Of a DNA stretch of 64,000 nt, positions 54,783 to 63,494 are shown one piece after another (positions within the stretch are counted from its first letter, which is position 1; every line of letters starts with the position of its first letter). The translations under genes were made by a program, and so were the position numbers. The stretch is from an uncultured Aquabacterium sp. (GTDB lineage: Bacteria; Pseudomonadota; Gammaproteobacteria; Burkholderiales; Burkholderiaceae_C), in assembly GCF_947366995.1 (NCBI RefSeq), contig NZ_CANBCC010000006.1, positions 28,208 to 92,207 on the forward strand, read 5' to 3'. The notes under the pieces were generated by a model. The model did not search any database. It was not told the origin of the DNA and saw only the letters and a list, made by a program, of their open reading frames with translations.

Positions 54783-55285
54783 TGGAGTCCGGGGGCGCAG
54801 CCCCCGTCTTGTCCATGCCTGACCAGTTCCCGCCCAGCATCTGGGATCGCCTCTTGGCCGCCGAGGGCGAACATCGGCCGGGCGGGCTGGTCGGCATCGA
54901 CAAGATCAAGGCCCAGGTGGCGCGCGATGTCGAGAACATCCTGAACGCCCGACAGGCGCTGTTCCTTGCCGGCGCCCAGTACAGCCTTGCTGCCCGTTCA
55001 GTCATAGGCTTCGGCCTCACGGACTTCGCACACGTGACCACCTACGGAACGCACGAGATGGACGAGGTCTGCCGCAGCATCGAGCGCGCCATCCTGGCCC
55101 ACGAGCACCGGCTGCGTCATGTGCAGGTGCGGTTCCGGGGTACATCGCTGATTGCCGGGCGCTGGGGCTTCGACGTCGTGGCCGAACTCCGTGTCGGCGA
55201 TGCGCGCGAGCCGATCAGTTTCGAAGCCGTCATGGATTCGTCCAAACAGAATTTCAGCGTGCAACAGGGCGCCGGACCCGCATGA
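54782..55285 (+). CDS. tssE: type VI secretion baseplate protein TssE
   Basis: The ATG at 54782 overlaps the hcp stop and gives 167 residues. The gp25-like features include SIWDRLL, VARDVENILNAR, SVIGFGLTDF and the C-terminal RWGFDVVAELRVGDAREPISF. TssE is the wedge component that starts sheath assembly. It overlaps tssF by 4 bp (ATGA). A later ATG (SMPDQF) could be the true start. Confidence 0.92.
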   Translation: MESGGAAPVLSMPDQFPPSIWDRLLAAEGEHRPGGLVGIDKIKAQVARDVENILNARQALFLAGAQYSLAARSVIGFGLTDFAHVTTYGTHEMDEVCRSIERAILAHEHRLRHVQVRFRGTSLIAGRWGFDVVAELRVGDAREPISFEAVMDSSKQNFSVQQGAGPA

Positions 55286-57153
55286 AGAGCCTTGTCCCCC
55301 ATTTCGAACGTGAGCTGACCTTTCTGCGCGAAAGGGCGTCGGGGTTCGCGCGCGCCTATCCGAAGATCGCTGCCAGGCTCGAGCTGAGTGACGGCGTCTC
55401 AAGTGACCCGCATGCGGAGCGCATGATCGAGTCGTTCGCCTTGTTGGCCGCCCGCATCCACAAGCGGTTGGACGACGACTTCTCGCTGTTCACCGAGTCC
55501 ATGCTTGAGGTGCTGTACCCCCACTACCTCCGGCCGTTCCCTTCGTGCTCGGTGGCGCGCTTCGATCAAGGCGCGGCGGCCGGGCAGCTCACCCGAGCGA
55601 TCACGGTGGGGCGAGGCACCAGCCTGCAGAGCCGTCCCGTCAAGGGCGTGGCGTGCCGGTTTCGCACCACCAAGGACGTCACCCTGCTGCCGCTGGTGGT
55701 CCAGTCGGCGATCTATCGCAATGCGGTGAAGGCGCCGCCCGGCACGCCCCTGCCAGCCGGCGTCACGTCCGTGCTCTCGGTACGTCTGTCCTTGTCGTCA
55801 CCTCAGGCGGCCTGGCCCGATGTCCTGACGCGACCGTTGCGTTTCTATCTCGACGGTGAGCCTTCGCTGGTGGTCGCCTTGCGCGAGGCCCTGTGTCGGA
55901 ACGTCGCGAGCATGATGGTGCAATGGGGTGACCATGGTGTGTGGCAGCCGATGGCATCGGACGCCCGACCACAGCAGGCGGGGTTCGATCCGGACGAACC
56001 GCTTGTGGCGTTCGACTCGCGAACGCACGACGCCTATCGGCTGCTCACCGAGTACTTTGTCTTTCCCGAGAAGTTCAACTTCGTCGACCTGCCGGTGTCG
56101 TCCCCTGCTGGCGCTGTCTCCGGTGCTGGCGAGTCCGACGCGCGGAGCTTGACCGTCCATCTGCTGATGAAAGGCATTCGCAGCGACTCGGATGCATCGC
56201 GCTTGCTCGAGATGAGTTCGGAGCGCAACCTCTTGCTGGGCTGCACGCCGGTCGTCAACCTGTTCGAGCAGCACGCCGATCCCATCCGCATCACGCAGCA
56301 GACGGTGTCCTATCCGGTCGTGGTGGACAGTCGGCGCGCTTTTGCCTATGAGGTTCACACCATCCGCAAGGTGTTCCGGGTCAGGAAAACGGCGGAAGGG
56401 GAGGCGGTCGAGGCCTTCGGGCCGATGTTCTCGTTCCGCCACGGCGACGACGAGGCCGATGATGAGGGCGCTCCCCGGTGTTATTGGCATGTCCGTCGCG
56501 ACGAGGACCTGGCTGAGCAGAGCCCGGGTTACGAGACGGAGCTGACGTTGGTGGATCAGGCCTTCAATCCCGCCGCGCCGCAGATCGATACGCTTTCGCT
56601 GACGGTGCTGGCGACCAACCGCGATCTGCCATCGCTCTTGCCTTTCGGCCTGCAGGGGGGCGACCTGTTCATGGAAGGGGGCGGTCCGGCGCGCGAGATC
56701 CGCCTGCTGCGCAAGCCGACGGCCAGCGTGCGGCTGCATCGGCATGGCGGGATGTTGTGGCGCTTGATCTCGCATCTGTCCCTCAACCATCTGTCGCTGG
56801 CGTCCGGGGGCGCCGAAGGCCTGCGTGAGATGCTGGGCCTCTATGACTTCGCCCGCGCATCGGGTGTGCGGGGCATGATCGATGGCCTCGAAGACCTCCG
56901 GTGTCGCGATGCGACGGCCTGGCTCCCGGGCGAGCCATTTGCCTCGTTCGTGAAGGGCACGGAAGTCCAGCTGTTTGTCGATGAGGAGCGTTTCGTCGGG
57001 GCGGGACTTGGCCTGTTTGCTGAAGTCCTGGATCGGTTCTTCGGGCTGTATGCCCACGCCAACAGTTTCACCCAGCTCACCGTGCTGGCCGCGCGTACCC
57101 AGGAAGTTCTGGTGTCATGTCCTCCCCGCAGCGGCGCTCAACGTCTGGTGTGA
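55282..57153 (+). CDS. tssF: type VI secretion baseplate protein TssF
   Basis: The 623-residue protein begins PHFERELTFLRERASGFARAYPKIAARLEL, the TssF hallmark, then LTESMLEVLYPHYLRPFPS and RFRTTKDVTLLPL. TssF is the large baseplate wedge protein that binds TssG. It starts on an ATGA overlap with tssE, and tssG begins 37 bp before its stop. Confidence 0.96.
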   Translation: MKSLVPHFERELTFLRERASGFARAYPKIAARLELSDGVSSDPHAERMIESFALLAARIHKRLDDDFSLFTESMLEVLYPHYLRPFPSCSVARFDQGAAAGQLTRAITVGRGTSLQSRPVKGVACRFRTTKDVTLLPLVVQSAIYRNAVKAPPGTPLPAGVTSVLSVRLSLSSPQAAWPDVLTRPLRFYLDGEPSLVVALREALCRNVASMMVQWGDHGVWQPMASDARPQQAGFDPDEPLVAFDSRTHDAYRLLTEYFVFPEKFNFVDLPVSSPAGAVSGAGESDARSLTVHLLMKGIRSDSDASRLLEMSSERNLLLGCTPVVNLFEQHADPIRITQQTVSYPVVVDSRRAFAYEVHTIRKVFRVRKTAEGEAVEAFGPMFSFRHGDDEADDEGAPRCYWHVRRDEDLAEQSPGYETELTLVDQAFNPAAPQIDTLSLTVLATNRDLPSLLPFGLQGGDLFMEGGGPAREIRLLRKPTASVRLHRHGGMLWRLISHLSLNHLSLASGGAEGLREMLGLYDFARASGVRGMIDGLEDLRCRDATAWLPGEPFASFVKGTEVQLFVDEERFVGAGLGLFAEVLDRFFGLYAHANSFTQLTVLAARTQEVLVSCPPRSGAQRLV

Positions 57154-58211
57154 TCCACCAACTGCTGCAGCAGCCGCAGCAGTTCGATTTCCTGCAGGCC
57201 GTGCGGTTGCTGGACCGTTGGCTGGACGGCGGGTTCCCAGCGGGGCGCGGGTTGGCGCGGGTTCGCTTCCGCAATGCCGTTTCGCTGTCGTTCCCAGCGA
57301 GCGACATCGAGGCGCTGGTGGTGCACGCTCGCGAGGACAACTTCGCCGACCTGGGTGCGATCCCGGCCACCGCCATTGACCGGGTCGAGGTCACGCCTGC
57401 CTTCATGGGACTGCTGGGCGTGAGTGGCGCCTTGCCGCTGTGCTACACCGAGGCCATCGGGCAGCGTGAGCTGTACCAGAAGGACACCGCAGCCCGCGCG
57501 TTCCTCGATGTGTTCACGCACCGCTCGGTCGTGCTGTTCTACGACGCGTGGCGAAAGCACCGCTTGCCCATCGATCTGGAGCTGACGGCGCCACGTCGCT
57601 TCCGGCGAATGATCCTGTCGCTGGGTGGGCTGAATGCCGTGGGGGAGCGGCCACGGGGCGGAGCGGAGCGAGTACCTGCGATTTCGGCCCAGGCACTCGC
57701 GTATTACGGCGGGGCGTTGCGGCACCAGCGGTGGTCGGCTGTGCAGGCCCAGCGCGTGCTCGCTGAGTACTTCGGTTTGCCGGTGCACATCGAACAGTTC
57801 GTGGGCCGCTGGTACGCCTTGCCCGAGCTCGCCCGAGCGCGGCTCGGCGTGCAGGTGGCTGGACAACGCACCCAGGGCGTGCTGGGGAAGTCCGCGCTGC
57901 TGGGCGAGCGGGTCTGGCAGCGCAACCTGTGCCTGCGCGTGGAGTTGGGCCCTTTGCCGCACGCCCGCCTGCAGGGGTTTCTGCCGGAGAGCCGCGGAGC
58001 GCGCGCGCTGTCACAGTGGCTGACGCTGTGCTTCGGGACCGGGCTGACCTTCGAGGTGCGCCTGCGACTGGACCGCGCGCACATCGAGCCGACCGTGCTG
58101 CACTCGGGCCGCGACAGCACGCGCAGCCGCCTCGGCTGGGACACGTTTCTGCAGACCCGCCCATCCACTGCAGACCGCGGGGACATCCGCTATGAGCTTC
58201 ATCCCGCTTGA
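57117..58211 (+). CDS. tssG: type VI secretion baseplate protein TssG
   Basis: The 364-residue protein has the TssG features QQPQQFDFLQAVRLLDRWL near the N-terminus, VTPAFMGLLGVSGALPLCYTEAI, FLDVFTHRSVVLFYDAWRKHR and the C-terminal SRLGWDTFLQTRP. It forms the wedge with TssE and TssF. Its first 12 codons overlap the end of tssF, so the two are translationally coupled. Confidence 0.94.
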   Translation: MSSPQRRSTSGVIHQLLQQPQQFDFLQAVRLLDRWLDGGFPAGRGLARVRFRNAVSLSFPASDIEALVVHAREDNFADLGAIPATAIDRVEVTPAFMGLLGVSGALPLCYTEAIGQRELYQKDTAARAFLDVFTHRSVVLFYDAWRKHRLPIDLELTAPRRFRRMILSLGGLNAVGERPRGGAERVPAISAQALAYYGGALRHQRWSAVQAQRVLAEYFGLPVHIEQFVGRWYALPELARARLGVQVAGQRTQGVLGKSALLGERVWQRNLCLRVELGPLPHARLQGFLPESRGARALSQWLTLCFGTGLTFEVRLRLDRAHIEPTVLHSGRDSTRSRLGWDTFLQTRPSTADRGDIRYELHPA

Positions 58212-58270
58212 GCCAGGCGGGATGCATCAGAACAAAGAACACACAAGGACCAGGGAAGGACCCCGTTGCC

Positions 58271-61057
58271 ATGAGCCAGAACCTCAAGACCCTCATCTCG
58301 AAATTGAACGACGCCACGCGCCAGGCGGCCGAGCGGGCCGCCAGTCTGTGCATGGGCCGCGGACACTACGAAGTGGACATCGAACACCTGCTGCTGGCCT
58401 TGCTGGAGAAGCCGGGCAACGACCTCGCGGTGCTCGCTCAGCGGGCCAGTGTGTCGCTCACCGAGTTGCAGCGTGACATCGAGGCCGAGCTGGCTGGCTT
58501 CAAGACGGGGAACACGCGCACGCCTGTGTTCTCGGCGCACCTGCCGGTGCTGCTGGAGCACGCCTGGTTGATCGCGTCGCTTGAATCAGCTGTTGCCCGC
58601 ATCCGCAGTGCGCATCTGCTGTTGGCGCTGCTGACCGAGCCCACGCTGAGCCAGTTGGCGCACCGCACGTCGCGGTTGTTCGCGCGCTTTCCGCTGGAGG
58701 ACCTGAAGCACCGACTGGCCGAGGTGACCCGCGGCTCGACGGAGGCGGTGACACCGGCCGCATCCCGCTCGGCGCAGCAGGACGACAGGGAGGGGGGTGC
58801 CGAGGAGGCGGATGCTACCGATGCCCTCAGCGGCAAGACCCCCGCCCTCGACCAGTTCACCACCAACCTCACGGAGCGCGCGCGCGAAGGCAAGGTGGAC
58901 CCGGTGATCGGTCGCGACGCCGAGATTCGACAGGCCATCGACATCCTGATGCGCCGGCGCCAGAACAACCCCATCCTGACGGGTGAGGCGGGCGTCGGCA
59001 AGACGGCGGTGGTGGAAGGGCTGGCCCTCCGTGTGGCCGAGGGCGACGTGCCGCCGCCGCTGCAAGGGGTCGCCATCCATGTGCTCGACATGGGCCTGCT
59101 GCAGGCGGGCGCGTCGGTCAAGGGCGAGTTCGAGAACCGCCTCAAGAACGTGATCGACGAGGTCAAGCGCAGCGCGCATCCGATCATCCTGTTCATTGAC
59201 GAGGCGCACACCATGATCGGTGCGGGCGGCCAGGCGGGGCAGAACGATGCAGCGAACCTGCTGAAGCCTGCCCTGGCGCGCGGTGAATTGCGCACGATCG
59301 CGGCGACGACCTGGGGTGAGTACAAGAAGTACTTCGAGAAGGATGCAGCGCTGGCGCGGCGCTTCCAGGTGATCAAAGTGGAGGAGCCGTCCGAGGAGCT
59401 TGCCTGCGCGATGCTGCGCGGCATGGCACCCTTGATGGAAAAGCACTTCGGCGTGCGCTTGCTGGACGGCGCGATTCGGGAGGCGGTGCGCCTGTCGGCG
59501 CGCTACATCAGCGGTCGGCAGCTGCCGGACAAGGCCGTGAGCGTGCTGGACACTGCGTGCGCCAAGGTCGCGCTGGGCCAGAGCGCCACGCCGGCCCGCA
59601 TCGAGGAGGCGCGCAAGCGTCTGGAACGTCTGGACGCGGAGGCGGCGGCCTTGCTGCGCGAGGCCACGATCGGGGCCCGGCATGGTGATCGCCTCGACGC
59701 CTTGAAGGCCGAGCGCAACGCCATCGTGCAACAGTTGCAGGCCGACGAGGCCCGCTGGAGCCATGAGCAGCAGCTGGTGACCGACATTCAGGCGCTGCGC
59801 GCGAAGCTGGAGCAGCAGGCCGGTGGCCTGTCGTCCGCCGAAGCGGGCCTGGCCACGACCGCTGCAGAGGCCACCGTGCCCGAGGGCACGAGCAAGGCCG
59901 CAAAGTCGCGCAAGAAGGAGGCGAGCCCGGCGTCGCCCGACCATGAGTTGCTGGCCGGCAAGCAGGCCGAGCTGGCCGCGCTGCAGGGCGAGGCGCCGTT
60001 GGTGCCGATGCAGGTGGATGGTCACGTGGTCGCCGAGATCGTGGCGGCCTGGACAGGCATCCCGCTGGGCAAGATGGTCAAGGACGAGATTCGCACGGTG
60101 CGCAATCTGCAGGGGACGCTGCAGGAGCGCGTCATCGGCCAGGACCACGCGCTGGCTGCGATCGCGCAGCGTGTGCGCACGGCCCGCGCCGGGCTCGAGG
60201 ACCCGAACAAGCCCAAGGGTGTGTTCCTGTTCGTGGGGCCCAGCGGCGTCGGCAAGACGGAGACCGCACTGGCGCTGGCCGACATCCTCTATGGCGGCGA
60301 GCGCAACCTCATCACCATCAACATGAGCGAGTATCAGGAGGCGCACAGCGTCAGCGGCCTGAAGGGCTCGCCGCCCGGCTATGTGGGCTATGGCGAGGGC
60401 GGCGTGCTGACCGAGGCCGTGCGCCGCAAGCCCTACAGCGTGGTGCTGCTCGACGAGGTCGAGAAGGCGCACCCGGATGTGCTGGAGATGTTCTTCCAGG
60501 TGTTCGACAAGGGCGTGATGGACGATGCAGAGGGGCGCGAGATCGACTTCCGCAACACGGTGATCATCCTCACCTCGAACGCGGGCTCACAGCAGATCAT
60601 GAACGCGTGCTTCCGGCAGGACGAGGAACTGGGTGGCCCGGTGATGCGGTCGGTCGACGAGATGCCGGCTGCAGACGAACTGGCGGAGACACTGCGCCCG
60701 GTGCTCTACAAGACCTTCAAGCCGGCCTTCATCGGGCGGACCAAGGTGGTGCCCTATTACCCGCTGAACGACGAAGTGCTGGTCGACGTGATCAAGCTCA
60801 AGCTGGATCGGATTGCGGCCCGCGTGGCGGCCAACCACCAGGCCGAATTGAGCTACGACGACGCGCTGGTGGAGTCGGTGCTGGCGCGGTGCACCGAGGT
60901 GGACACGGGCGCCCGGGCGGTGGACCACATTCTCAATGGCAGCCTGCTGCCCGAAGTGGCGGAAAGCGTGCTGGCTCGCATGGCCGAGGGGCAGCCCATC
61001 CAGCGCATCAAGGTGAGCGCGGCCAAGGACGGTGCCTTCCGCTTCAAGGTGGCGTGA
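58271..61057 (+). CDS. tssH: type VI secretion AAA+ ATPase TssH (ClpV)
   Basis: The start at ATG 58271 (MSQNLKTLISKLND) gives 928 residues; the track ORF adds 21. It has a Clp N-domain, then two AAA+ modules with Walker A GEAGVGKTAVVEG and GPSGVGKTETAL and Walker B ILFIDEAHTMIG and VLLDEVEKAHPD. The region between them has the ClpB-type middle helices but with a Ala/Lys-rich insert (GTSKAAKSRKKEASPAS). ClpV disassembles contracted sheaths. It is last in the rightward arm. Confidence 0.95.
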   Translation: MSQNLKTLISKLNDATRQAAERAASLCMGRGHYEVDIEHLLLALLEKPGNDLAVLAQRASVSLTELQRDIEAELAGFKTGNTRTPVFSAHLPVLLEHAWLIASLESAVARIRSAHLLLALLTEPTLSQLAHRTSRLFARFPLEDLKHRLAEVTRGSTEAVTPAASRSAQQDDREGGAEEADATDALSGKTPALDQFTTNLTERAREGKVDPVIGRDAEIRQAIDILMRRRQNNPILTGEAGVGKTAVVEGLALRVAEGDVPPPLQGVAIHVLDMGLLQAGASVKGEFENRLKNVIDEVKRSAHPIILFIDEAHTMIGAGGQAGQNDAANLLKPALARGELRTIAATTWGEYKKYFEKDAALARRFQVIKVEEPSEELACAMLRGMAPLMEKHFGVRLLDGAIREAVRLSARYISGRQLPDKAVSVLDTACAKVALGQSATPARIEEARKRLERLDAEAAALLREATIGARHGDRLDALKAERNAIVQQLQADEARWSHEQQLVTDIQALRAKLEQQAGGLSSAEAGLATTAAEATVPEGTSKAAKSRKKEASPASPDHELLAGKQAELAALQGEAPLVPMQVDGHVVAEIVAAWTGIPLGKMVKDEIRTVRNLQGTLQERVIGQDHALAAIAQRVRTARAGLEDPNKPKGVFLFVGPSGVGKTETALALADILYGGERNLITINMSEYQEAHSVSGLKGSPPGYVGYGEGGVLTEAVRRKPYSVVLLDEVEKAHPDVLEMFFQVFDKGVMDDAEGREIDFRNTVIILTSNAGSQQIMNACFRQDEELGGPVMRSVDEMPAADELAETLRPVLYKTFKPAFIGRTKVVPYYPLNDEVLVDVIKLKLDRIAARVAANHQAELSYDDALVESVLARCTEVDTGARAVDHILNGSLLPEVAESVLARMAEGQPIQRIKVSAAKDGAFRFKVA

Positions 61058-61089: not shown

Positions 61090-61299
61090 TCAGTCGCTGA
61101 GCACGAGCATGGCCTCGTCGCACCAGTCGTTGGCGGCGGTGTAGAAGCCTTCCCAGACGCAGCCGTTGCAGCCACGGCCGCAGCAGGTGGTGGGCTCGGG
61201 GGGCGGTTCGCGCAGGGTGACGCCCTTCTGGGCGGCCTGGCGCTGGAAGTGGGCGAACATGGCCTGGGCCGATTCGCGGTCGGTGAGCTGGAAGTCCAT
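61090..61299 (-). CDS. small oxidoreductase-like domain protein, Cys-rich
   Basis: The start at ATG 61299 (MDFQLTDRESAQAMF) gives 69 residues; the track ORF reads on into antisense of the next gene. The cysteine pattern CCGRGCNGCVWEGFY is that of the oxidoreductase-like domain (PF09791-type), found in small bacterial proteins and at the ends of some larger ones. It could bind iron-sulfur or zinc; no function is established. It is convergent with tssH and divergent from the two unknown membrane proteins. Confidence 0.75.
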   Translation of the reverse strand: MDFQLTDRESAQAMFAHFQRQAAQKGVTLREPPPEPTTCCGRGCNGCVWEGFYTAANDWCDEAMLVLSD

Positions 61300-61400: not shown

Positions 61401-62204
61401 GTGCAGCCCGATGTGTCCCGTGATCCCGTGCCCGCGTCGCCGTCGCCTTCTGGCGACCCGGCGGCGGGTGGTCGTGTGGTGACATGGCGGGCGCTGATCC
61501 TGACGTCGATCGTGCTGGTGCTGGCCATGACGGCCGTGGCGGTCGGCGTGGCAGCGTATGCGTGGCACCACCTGGCCGCCCGTGTCACGCTGCGCGAACA
61601 GCAGGCCGACGTGCTGCTGCCCGAGTCGCTCGCTGTACGGGCCACCGTGGCCGAGGGCGTGACGGTGCGCATCGACCAGACGCTGCCGGTGCGCGTGCCC
61701 ATCCAGCAGGCACTGTCCATTCCGATCGACGACGAGATTCCGCTGGTGGTGAGCCTGGACACGACGGTGCCCATCGCGCTGGACGTGCCGGTAAAGACCG
61801 TGATCCGGCTGGACCAGTCCGTGGACGTGGACACCCGCGTGCAGACCCGGGTGCTGGGCATGACGCTGAACCTACCCATCCGGGGCCGTGTGCCCATCCA
61901 GGCCGATGTGCCGATCGACGTGATCGTGCCGGTGCGCGAACGGTTGCCCGTGGTGCTGCAGGCGCCGGCGCGGGTGAGCCTGCCCGAACCCATCCGCACC
62001 CGCATAGACACCGTGATCGAAGCCCGTGTGCCGGTGCGCGAGGTGCTGCATCTGCCGCTGTCGCGCCCGGTGGAGGCGAGTTTGCGCTTTCCTCAGCAGA
62101 CGGTGCGCGCCGGGCTGGCCGAGCTGGATCTGACCCTGCCGTTCCAGGCCCTGAGCATTGGCAGCTTGAAAGGGCCGGAGCCCACCGGTGCCCCTGTGCC
62201 ATGA
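61401..62204 (+). CDS. unknown membrane-anchored repeat protein, first of two paralogues
   Basis: The family is not recognised. The 267-residue protein starts at GTG 61401. A 30-residue hydrophilic N-terminus precedes one membrane helix (ALILTSIVLVLAMTAVAVGVAAYAW, 31-55). The rest is probably periplasmic: from residue 62 to 230 it is a succession of short hydrophobic strands broken by polar turns and Pro, such as TLPVRVPI, LSIPIDDEIPLVVSL, VPIALDVPV and VPIQADVPI, repeating every 9-12 residues. This suggests a solenoid or extended beta structure. Its stop overlaps the next gene (ATGA), whose product resembles it. Confidence 0.8.
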   Translation: MQPDVSRDPVPASPSPSGDPAAGGRVVTWRALILTSIVLVLAMTAVAVGVAAYAWHHLAARVTLREQQADVLLPESLAVRATVAEGVTVRIDQTLPVRVPIQQALSIPIDDEIPLVVSLDTTVPIALDVPVKTVIRLDQSVDVDTRVQTRVLGMTLNLPIRGRVPIQADVPIDVIVPVRERLPVVLQAPARVSLPEPIRTRIDTVIEARVPVREVLHLPLSRPVEASLRFPQQTVRAGLAELDLTLPFQALSIGSLKGPEPTGAPVP

Positions 62205-62935
62205 CGGGCCACACAGGGGCGCCATCGGGCTGGCATCGTGTGGTGACACGTCCTCAGATGGTGGTGGTGGCGCTGCTGGTGCTGACCGTTTGGCTGGCCC
62301 TGATGGCCATGGGTGCGTGGTTGTTCTGGCGGCATGCCGAAGTGCGGCTCGCGCTGCGGGATCAGCCGCTCACGCTCACGTTGCCAGCCGGTCTGCAGGC
62401 CGCGGCGACAGTGAATCGCCCATTGACGTCGCGCCTGAAGGCGTCGCCCCGGGTGCCGCTGGAGGTGGATCAGCGGGTGCGGGTGCGCTTCGAGGATGCA
62501 CTGTCGGCCCGTGTCGCGTTGAAGACGGTGCTGCCTGTGCACACAGTGGTGCAGGTGGACCAGCAGGTCCGCGTGTCGGCGCCGGTGTCGCTGGATGTGC
62601 CGGTGGTTCGGTGGTTGCCGCCCTTCAAGGTGACGGTGCCGGTTCAGCTGGTGTTGCCGGTGCAGTTCAAGGTGCCAGTCGACACGCAGGTGCCACTGGA
62701 CCTCGACGTGCTGGTGAGTGGTCGCTGGCCGGAGGACCTGATCGTTCCCCTGAAGGCCAGCTGGAGCCTGCGGCCCGAACTGGACGCGCCGCTGCGAGCC
62801 GCATTGACGCGAGAGACGCTGTTCACCCTGCAGGGGCCGGTGGCGCCGCTCGCACTGCGCATCCCGGCGATGGACTTGCGCATGCCGGTAAGCTGGATGG
62901 CGCTGGTGGCGGCACCACCCCCGTTGACACGGTGA
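62201..62935 (+). CDS. unknown membrane-anchored repeat protein, second of two paralogues
   Basis: The ATG at 62201 overlaps the previous stop and gives 244 residues. The layout is the same as its neighbour: a 19-residue N-terminus, a membrane helix (MVVVALLVLTVWLALMAMGAWLF, 20-42), then strand-like Val/Pro repeats (RVPLEVDQRVRVRF, VSAPVSLDVPVVRWLPP, KVTVPVQLVLPVQFKVPV). The junction after the helix aligns with the first protein (VRLALRDQPLTLTLPAGL against ARVTLREQQADVLLPESL), so the two arose by tandem duplication. The C-terminal 60 residues lose the repeat. No function can be assigned. The 61484 track start is antisense-free overlap and is rejected. Confidence 0.8.
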   Translation: MTGHTGAPSGWHRVVTRPQMVVVALLVLTVWLALMAMGAWLFWRHAEVRLALRDQPLTLTLPAGLQAAATVNRPLTSRLKASPRVPLEVDQRVRVRFEDALSARVALKTVLPVHTVVQVDQQVRVSAPVSLDVPVVRWLPPFKVTVPVQLVLPVQFKVPVDTQVPLDLDVLVSGRWPEDLIVPLKASWSLRPELDAPLRAALTRETLFTLQGPVAPLALRIPAMDLRMPVSWMALVAAPPPLTR

Positions 62936-62954: not shown

Positions 62955-63494
62955 TCAGGCCGTCTGCTGCAGCACGCCGAGGGCCTCTTCGCACCAATTG
63001 GCCCAGCTGGCCTCGTACATGATCCCGGTCTTGAGGATGAGATGCTGGATGCGCTTTTCCCGCGTGGCGGGGTGGCCGGGCGGGAAGTCGCGCGCTTCGA
63101 TGGCCCGGTAAGCGGCCAGGCGGGTCTGGTGCAGCTGCATGCGGCGGCGCAGCTCGTCTTCCAGGCCCAACGGGCCGATGGCGGCGTCGGCGCGCAGGCG
63201 CACCATCAGCTCGTCGCGCAGGTCGGTGGGCTCGGTGGGTTCGCGCACCCAGGCGCGCAGCGCGGCTTCGCCGGCGGGCAGCACCTGGTAGAGGCGCTTG
63301 CGGGTCTTGCCGCCGTCCGGCGCGGCGTCGGAAGCGATCCACCCGGCCTGTTCCATGCGGGCCAGCTCGCGGTAGATCTGCTGGTGGGTGGCGTGCCAGA
63401 AGAAGCCGATGGACTTGTCGAAGCGGCGGGCGAGGTCGTAGCCCGAGGACGGTTTTTCCAGCAACGAGGTCAGCAGGGCATGGGCGAGCGACAT
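62955..63494 (-). CDS. PadR family transcriptional repressor
   Basis: The 179-residue protein begins with a PadR winged helix: LAHALLTSLLEKPSSGYDLARRFDKSIGFFWHATHQQIYRELARMEQAGWI, then KTRKRLYQVLPAGEAALRAWV. The C-terminal helical half (Vir_C type) carries the dimer interface and effector site. It is divergent from fadH, and two identical-in-reverse palindromes lie between the genes, so it probably represses fadH and itself. The ligand could be an acyl-CoA or phenolic compound; this is inference. Confidence 0.92.
   Translation of the reverse strand: MSLAHALLTSLLEKPSSGYDLARRFDKSIGFFWHATHQQIYRELARMEQAGWIASDAAPDGGKTRKRLYQVLPAGEAALRAWVREPTEPTDLRDELMVRLRADAAIGPLGLEDELRRRMQLHQTRLAAYRAIEARDFPPGHPATREKRIQHLILKTGIMYEASWANWCEEALGVLQQTA

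Follow-up and report, generated by a model that had tools for sequence, protein, structure and literature searches.

Two overlapping genes in a 64,000-nucleotide stretch of Aquabacterium sp. DNA (the window) raise the question of what two proteins with a single membrane helix and an unusually regular ectodomain do in the cell envelope. An earlier note on this DNA had placed them between a T6SS locus and a PadR/fadH pair, and the coordinates, the strand, the ATGA overlap, the single N-terminal hydrophobic helix and the Val/Pro strand pattern that it describes all agree with the sequence and its translations (Table 1). The two genes, here called A and B, stand alone as a unit; the flanking Oxidored-like (upstream) and PadR (downstream) genes are on the opposite strand. 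A search of the source genome returned one A-B pair and no further copy. In both proteins the membrane helix is followed by an ectodomain of about 190 residues, and A and B are homologous (BLASTP 27% identity, E=1e-8; profile-profile probability 99.8%, E=1e-29, 230 columns), which bears out their description as tandem paralogues.

Table 1. Genes A and B, their parts and their neighbours (coordinates are those of the window; res, residues)
Feature	Coordinates	Strand	Description or basis
Gene A	61401..62204	+	GTG start, 267 aa; translation and homologues
Gene A protein parts			N-terminus 1-28, membrane helix ~29-57, ectodomain ~63-252
A ectodomain first half, res 63-151	61587..61853	+	hydrophobic at odd positions, with a polar break after every 8/10 residues (18-residue repeat)
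A Leu152-Gly153	61854..61859	+	single phase slip of A
A ectodomain second half, res 154-250	61860..62150	+	hydrophobic at even positions; Pro hexad 159, 165, 171, 177, 183
ATGA overlap, A stop / B start	62201..62204	+	sequence
Gene B	62201..62935	+	244 aa; translation and homologues
Gene B protein parts			N-terminus with GWxRxV motif, membrane helix ~17-45, ectodomain ~49-236
B ectodomain first half, res 49-137	62345..62611	+	
B WLPP, res 138-141	62612..62623	+	phase slip of B
B ectodomain second half, res 142-236	62624..62908	+	Pro hexad 147, 153, 159, 165
Outside pair: T6SS tssF, tssG, clpV	55282..61057	+	
Outside pair: small Oxidored-like protein, divergent	61090..61299	-	Pfam PF09791, E=7e-13
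Outside pair: PadR-family regulator	62955..63494	-	Pfam

The alternation of hydrophobic and polar residues in A and B is far beyond chance. Hydrophobicity has a period of 2.02 in both ectodomains, with a Fourier power of 60039 for A and 55515 for B against 95% shuffle limits of 15114 and 11147, respectively, and the best 25 alternation scores among 294 background ORFs, taken from the window, related loci and E. coli regions, all belonged to family members. The alternation holds its phase over 90-160 residues and slips no more than once, at a conserved Leu-Gly in A or Trp-Leu-Pro in B. In A it runs from about residue 63 to 151, slips at Leu152-Gly153 and resumes from 154 to about 230, with an extra hydrophobic stretch at 242-248 near the end; Gly153 is invariant in alignment A2 and is retained in the aligned Moraxellaceae A rows and in a lone A-like protein from a further gammaproteobacterium (G348). 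B slips at Trp138-Leu-Pro, and the A. baumannii B protein keeps a single phase over some 166 residues. Judged from this residue pattern, each ectodomain has one continuous hydrophobic face and one polar, proline-studded face.

The regular beta repeat of the earlier note stands, with a regularity beyond chance, although its 9-12-residue spacing is better put as an 18-residue repeat of 8+10 steps. Conserved polar positions break the hydrophobic face of A at 67, 75, 85, 93, 103, 111 and 121, and these steps of 8 and 10 define an 18-residue unit, four copies of which were aligned by eye (QQADVLLPESLAVRATVA / EGVTVRIDQTLPVRVPIQ / QALSIPIDDEIPLVVSLD / TTVPIALDVPVKTVIRLD). Lag 18 ranked first or tied-first in all four half-domains (z 2.3-3.7) against shuffles that preserve the alternation. 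Most conserved prolines belong to the polar face and, in the second half, follow a hexad spacing; glycine is rare in the ectodomains (1.6-2.9%). A hexapeptide left-handed helix was rejected, as by eye the VPxxxx hexad occupies only part of each second half and has no Gly/Ala position.

AlphaFold models of A and B, built from an alignment of 23 sequences, reached a pLDDT of 52-56 and a pTM of 0.21-0.35; a helix was placed at residues 29-66 of A (block pLDDT up to 91) and 17-45 of B (block pLDDT up to 96). This confidence is too low for a fold search or fold assignment, leaving an antiparallel groove, a sandwich and the solenoid, stalk or filament of the earlier note as candidates, and Foldseek with these models gave no match at E<=0.001. 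The A model draws 39-residue strands, which we disbelieve given its low confidence and the conserved polar breaks every 8/10 residues, which point to short strands.

Neither window protein gave an above-cut-off match in Pfam, NCBIfam, PHROGs or PDB sequences, and the PDB matches from the profile search look spurious. We found no description of the pair in the published literature either. By sequence comparison, then, the pair appears to fit no described family that could be found, as the earlier note had it. That note had also named a confident family match, or homologues that lack the repeat or never occur as a pair, as grounds for abandoning its reading; both were looked for and neither was found. 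Weak phylum-wide HMM matches at five loci (L068-L072) look like low-complexity repeats rather than family members, and two further weak ones were recorded at L067 (G731; no ORF shown in the filter) and L073 (G051).

The most frequent weak Pfam match was LEA_2 (PF03168), found in 5 of 20 Moraxellaceae members with a best E=0.0075 and a best printed score of 15.8 bits against a gathering score of 25.4 bits. Together with the single-helix-plus-ectodomain layout of TMEM106-type proteins, which A and B resemble, it could be taken to indicate a LEA_2 (WHy)-style two-subunit binding or sensing module, in which a beta-sandwich ectodomain on a single helix would protect or sense the envelope. We regard this as rather unlikely, since the matches inspected closely span just 50-66 residues, below the curated cut-off, and the repeats run continuously through 190 residues instead of forming one 100-residue domain.

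Bactofilin (PF04519; gathering score 27.9 bits) was weakly matched in 3 of the 20 Moraxellaceae members (best E=1e-5, one A5 member), with no Pfam match to it in the window A and B proteins. This sub-threshold type of similarity, the very regular repeat with proline on one face and the absence of a conserved enzyme partner from the neighbourhoods would suit a structural envelope element, that is, a rigid spacer or a laterally polymerizing beta-solenoid scaffold that lies against the inner membrane on its periplasmic side and transports no cargo. Most members, however, lack the Bactofilin similarity, which may reflect alternation alone, the scarcity of glycine sits poorly with tight solenoid corners, and no dedicated outer-membrane or wall-binding domain is seen in A or B. 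A structural element is a doubtful candidate, but the main rival to the reading preferred below.

We then turn to where the family occurs. It is not a local oddity, since two distant lineages carry the pair and the genes around it differ widely from one context to another. Among the 37 Aquabacterium genomes searched (source genome counted), 33 have A and 32 have both genes; the single genome with A and without B is G028, where A sits near a contig end. Both genes were present in 22 of 22 Aquabacterium loci from the contig collection, and the family is absent from all other genomes among the 300 Burkholderiales searched. Matches were obtained in 84 of 299 Moraxellaceae genomes, several with one weak match only, and 73 of the 84 belong to one genus, which we take to be Acinetobacter, given the 99-100% identity of a member locus to the A. 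baumannii locus. There the pair lies between GAPDH and obgE-proB (order GAPDH-A-B-obgE-proB), and it is found in most Acinetobacter examined (about 70 genomes), usually fixed beside obgE. In other Moraxellaceae genera it adjoins prfA, uvrD, IMPDH/pyruvate dehydrogenase or DUF445 genes. The lone A-like gene of G348 begins 16 bp after a DAGK-type lipid kinase gene and is convergent to lptG/lptF, in a partly masked locus (L064:6642-8592). Overall, A and B occur together in both Aquabacterium and Moraxellaceae, a conserved pairing of the kind that the earlier note would have counted in favour of its reading.

Several loci depart from this arrangement. One Acinetobacter genome (G1170; L116, L117) has A beside GAPDH and B beside obgE with about 92 kb between them, so that the pair is split and both genes are kept. 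Another Moraxellaceae genome (G1069; L108, L109) carries two separate A-B pairs, one followed on the same strand by a DUF445 membrane-protein gene, and four Acinetobacter genomes (G1180, G1306, G1316, G1354) gave 4 to 6 matches each, suggesting extra copies of the pair. An A. baumannii homologue of A (CP040041.1, 509782-510516) is annotated 'MFS transporter', a label for which its single helix and repeat give no support. With regard to a viral origin, no viral contig with the family was found; two 'Acinetobacter phage' records with a 99% identical gene look like host sequence, and NZ_CP077849.1 (a 3.66 Mb 'plasmid') and CAKLQF020000007.1 (an 'Acinetobacter phage') appear to be mislabelled host sequence because they hold the chromosomal pair.

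Phylogenetic analysis resolved four supported groups, namely Aquabacterium A, Aquabacterium B, Moraxellaceae A and Moraxellaceae B. A tree separating all A from all B was not rejected against the free tree (p-AU 0.62), which allows, without proving, one old A/B duplication. The patchy spread of the family suggests that the pair moved between lineages by transfer.

T6SS genes lie directly upstream of the pair in 28 of 35 distinct Aquabacterium loci (L055 and L142 taken once, and L041 included though only a broken clpV is left there), which raises the possibility that A and B are a T6SS accessory part, such as a membrane anchor or immunity protein. We consider this very improbable. The pair is intact in two genomes at least 99% complete and without TssF (G023, G029), so it does not occur only with a T6SS, and in G029 it lies beside the broken clpV. 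Four loci (L049, L057, L130, L132) have the pair and no T6SS in flanks long enough to show one, G021 has a T6SS with no pair beside it, and the Acinetobacter pair sits at GAPDH-obgE, away from T6SS genes. The persistence of the pair where the T6SS has been lost indicates linkage rather than functional dependence, and the T6SS-free genomes largely rule out an accessory role. Three Aquabacterium loci are interrupted by a contig end. Among the neighbours of A in Aquabacterium, the small Oxidored-like gene is the one most often retained. The broken clpV (L041:6675-7648) consists of two overlapping fragments in different frames and adjoins an intact A-B. In G025 (L137, 9633-13715) tssF and tssG are beside the pair, with no clpV match between tssG and the Oxidored-like gene.

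What, then, might the pair do? Our preferred reading, to which we give a probability of roughly 40%, is that A and B assemble in the periplasm and that their continuous hydrophobic face makes a groove in which lipid or other hydrophobic cargo is carried. A and B would constitute a dedicated two-subunit envelope system, each with one inner-membrane helix, the N-terminus inside and the ectodomain in the periplasm. Lys/Arg are more frequent before than after the helix in 22 of 23 B, 16 of 23 Aquabacterium A and 13 of 20 Moraxellaceae rows, which lends this topology modest support, the bias for A being modest. Each ectodomain would comprise some ten 18-residue units in tandem, each made of two short strands with about three and four hydrophobic residues in a row on one face, probably arranged as an elongated beta structure. 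A long Val/Ile/Leu face is untenable in water and should be covered by a partner, by self-folding or by a hydrophobic ligand. Conserved pairing fits a partner and makes an A-B hetero-oligomer, as the earlier note had entertained, plausible; the TamB groove likeness and the one lipid-kinase neighbour fit a ligand. Most likely A and B would stand side by side or face to face, their hydrophobic faces lining a groove or narrow tube that may bind lipid or other hydrophobic cargo, or pass it into the periplasm from the inner membrane, in a mode like the TamB/YhdP beta-groove but smaller and made of two subunits. Some 20 strands spaced at 4.8 Å would extend about 10 nm if single-layered, less than the periplasm, so that A-B would have either to rely on a partner or to function locally, next to the inner membrane.

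The strict alternation and 18-residue repeat, the TamB best window scoring near A and B, the charge bias around the helix, the conserved pairing in both lineages with its four clean groups and an A/B duplication that the trees allow, the retention of both genes in G1170 despite the split and the G348 singleton beside a lipid kinase gene all favour the groove. Against it, profiles show no similarity to TamB, YhdP or YdbH, the models give no confident structure, the usual neighbours (GAPDH, obgE, proB, uvrD, prfA, IMPDH, T6SS) are uninformative on lipids, the lipid kinase is a single case, and the hydrophobic faces could merely pack against each other. Alternatively, A and B may face each other in a closed sandwich or barrel that presents only its polar outer face and serves as adaptor to some membrane enzyme or transporter whose gene lies elsewhere; a conserved pair with no fixed gene neighbour, and conserved prolines and Asp/Gln turns on the polar face, agree with this, but no candidate partner was identified and we judge it improbable.

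The Acinetobacter envelope is unusual and has many uncharacterised parts. Beyond the earlier note, the survey shows the pair in nearly all Aquabacterium genomes and in Moraxellaceae, with the T6SS dispensable. An envelope pair that is almost genus-wide in Acinetobacter, has an extreme repeat and lacks a family name offers a defined target for tests. As a lipid conduit, the pair would be a new kind of bridge or chaperone bearing on how lipids cross the periplasm; if a scaffold, A and B would still be a new repeat family. It is tempting, if speculative, to go further than a groove and propose a new hydrophobic conduit of two subunits in the periplasm, part of the core of both Acinetobacter and Aquabacterium. 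It would be based on a strictly alternating 18-residue beta repeat, unrelated in sequence to AsmA, MCE and Lpt, and its two genes would probably have been passed together between Moraxellaceae and Aquabacterium.

Among known systems, E. coli proteins were compared with the pair by their best 120-residue alternation window: A scored 5.49, TamB 5.36, B 5.18, YhdP 3.51, YdbH 2.84, LptC 2.15 and LptA 1.38. LptC has a single helix and a periplasmic beta ectodomain similar in size to those of A and B, but is without the alternation (2.15), has no paralogous partner of this kind and gives no sequence match. LEA_2/WHy shares the weak similarity of 5 of 20 Moraxellaceae members and differs in that this is sub-cut-off where scored and partial in coverage, the A/B repeat being continuous rather than one domain. 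Bactofilin shares an alternating beta repeat and weak similarity in 3 of 20 members, whereas the A/B ectodomains are glycine-poor and membrane-anchored and most members are unmatched. The closest likeness appears to be with TamB and the AsmA superfamily, which have a single N-terminal inner-membrane helix, long in-phase alternation with one hydrophobic face, and a periplasmic beta structure that in A and B is predicted; a solved TamB fragment is a hydrophobic-lined beta-taco (PMC6791001, PMC11014939). In contrast, TamB has 1259 aa against about 250 aa for A and B, which are a two-gene pair with an 18-residue proline-rich repeat. No scanned family member matched AsmA, TamB or chorein-N, which lies at the N-terminus of AsmA and TamB (PMC6791001), in Pfam, and hhalign of the family profile against TamB, YhdP and YdbH gave probabilities below 1%. 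While homology with them is unsupported, A and B may work in the manner of TamB and the AsmA proteins.
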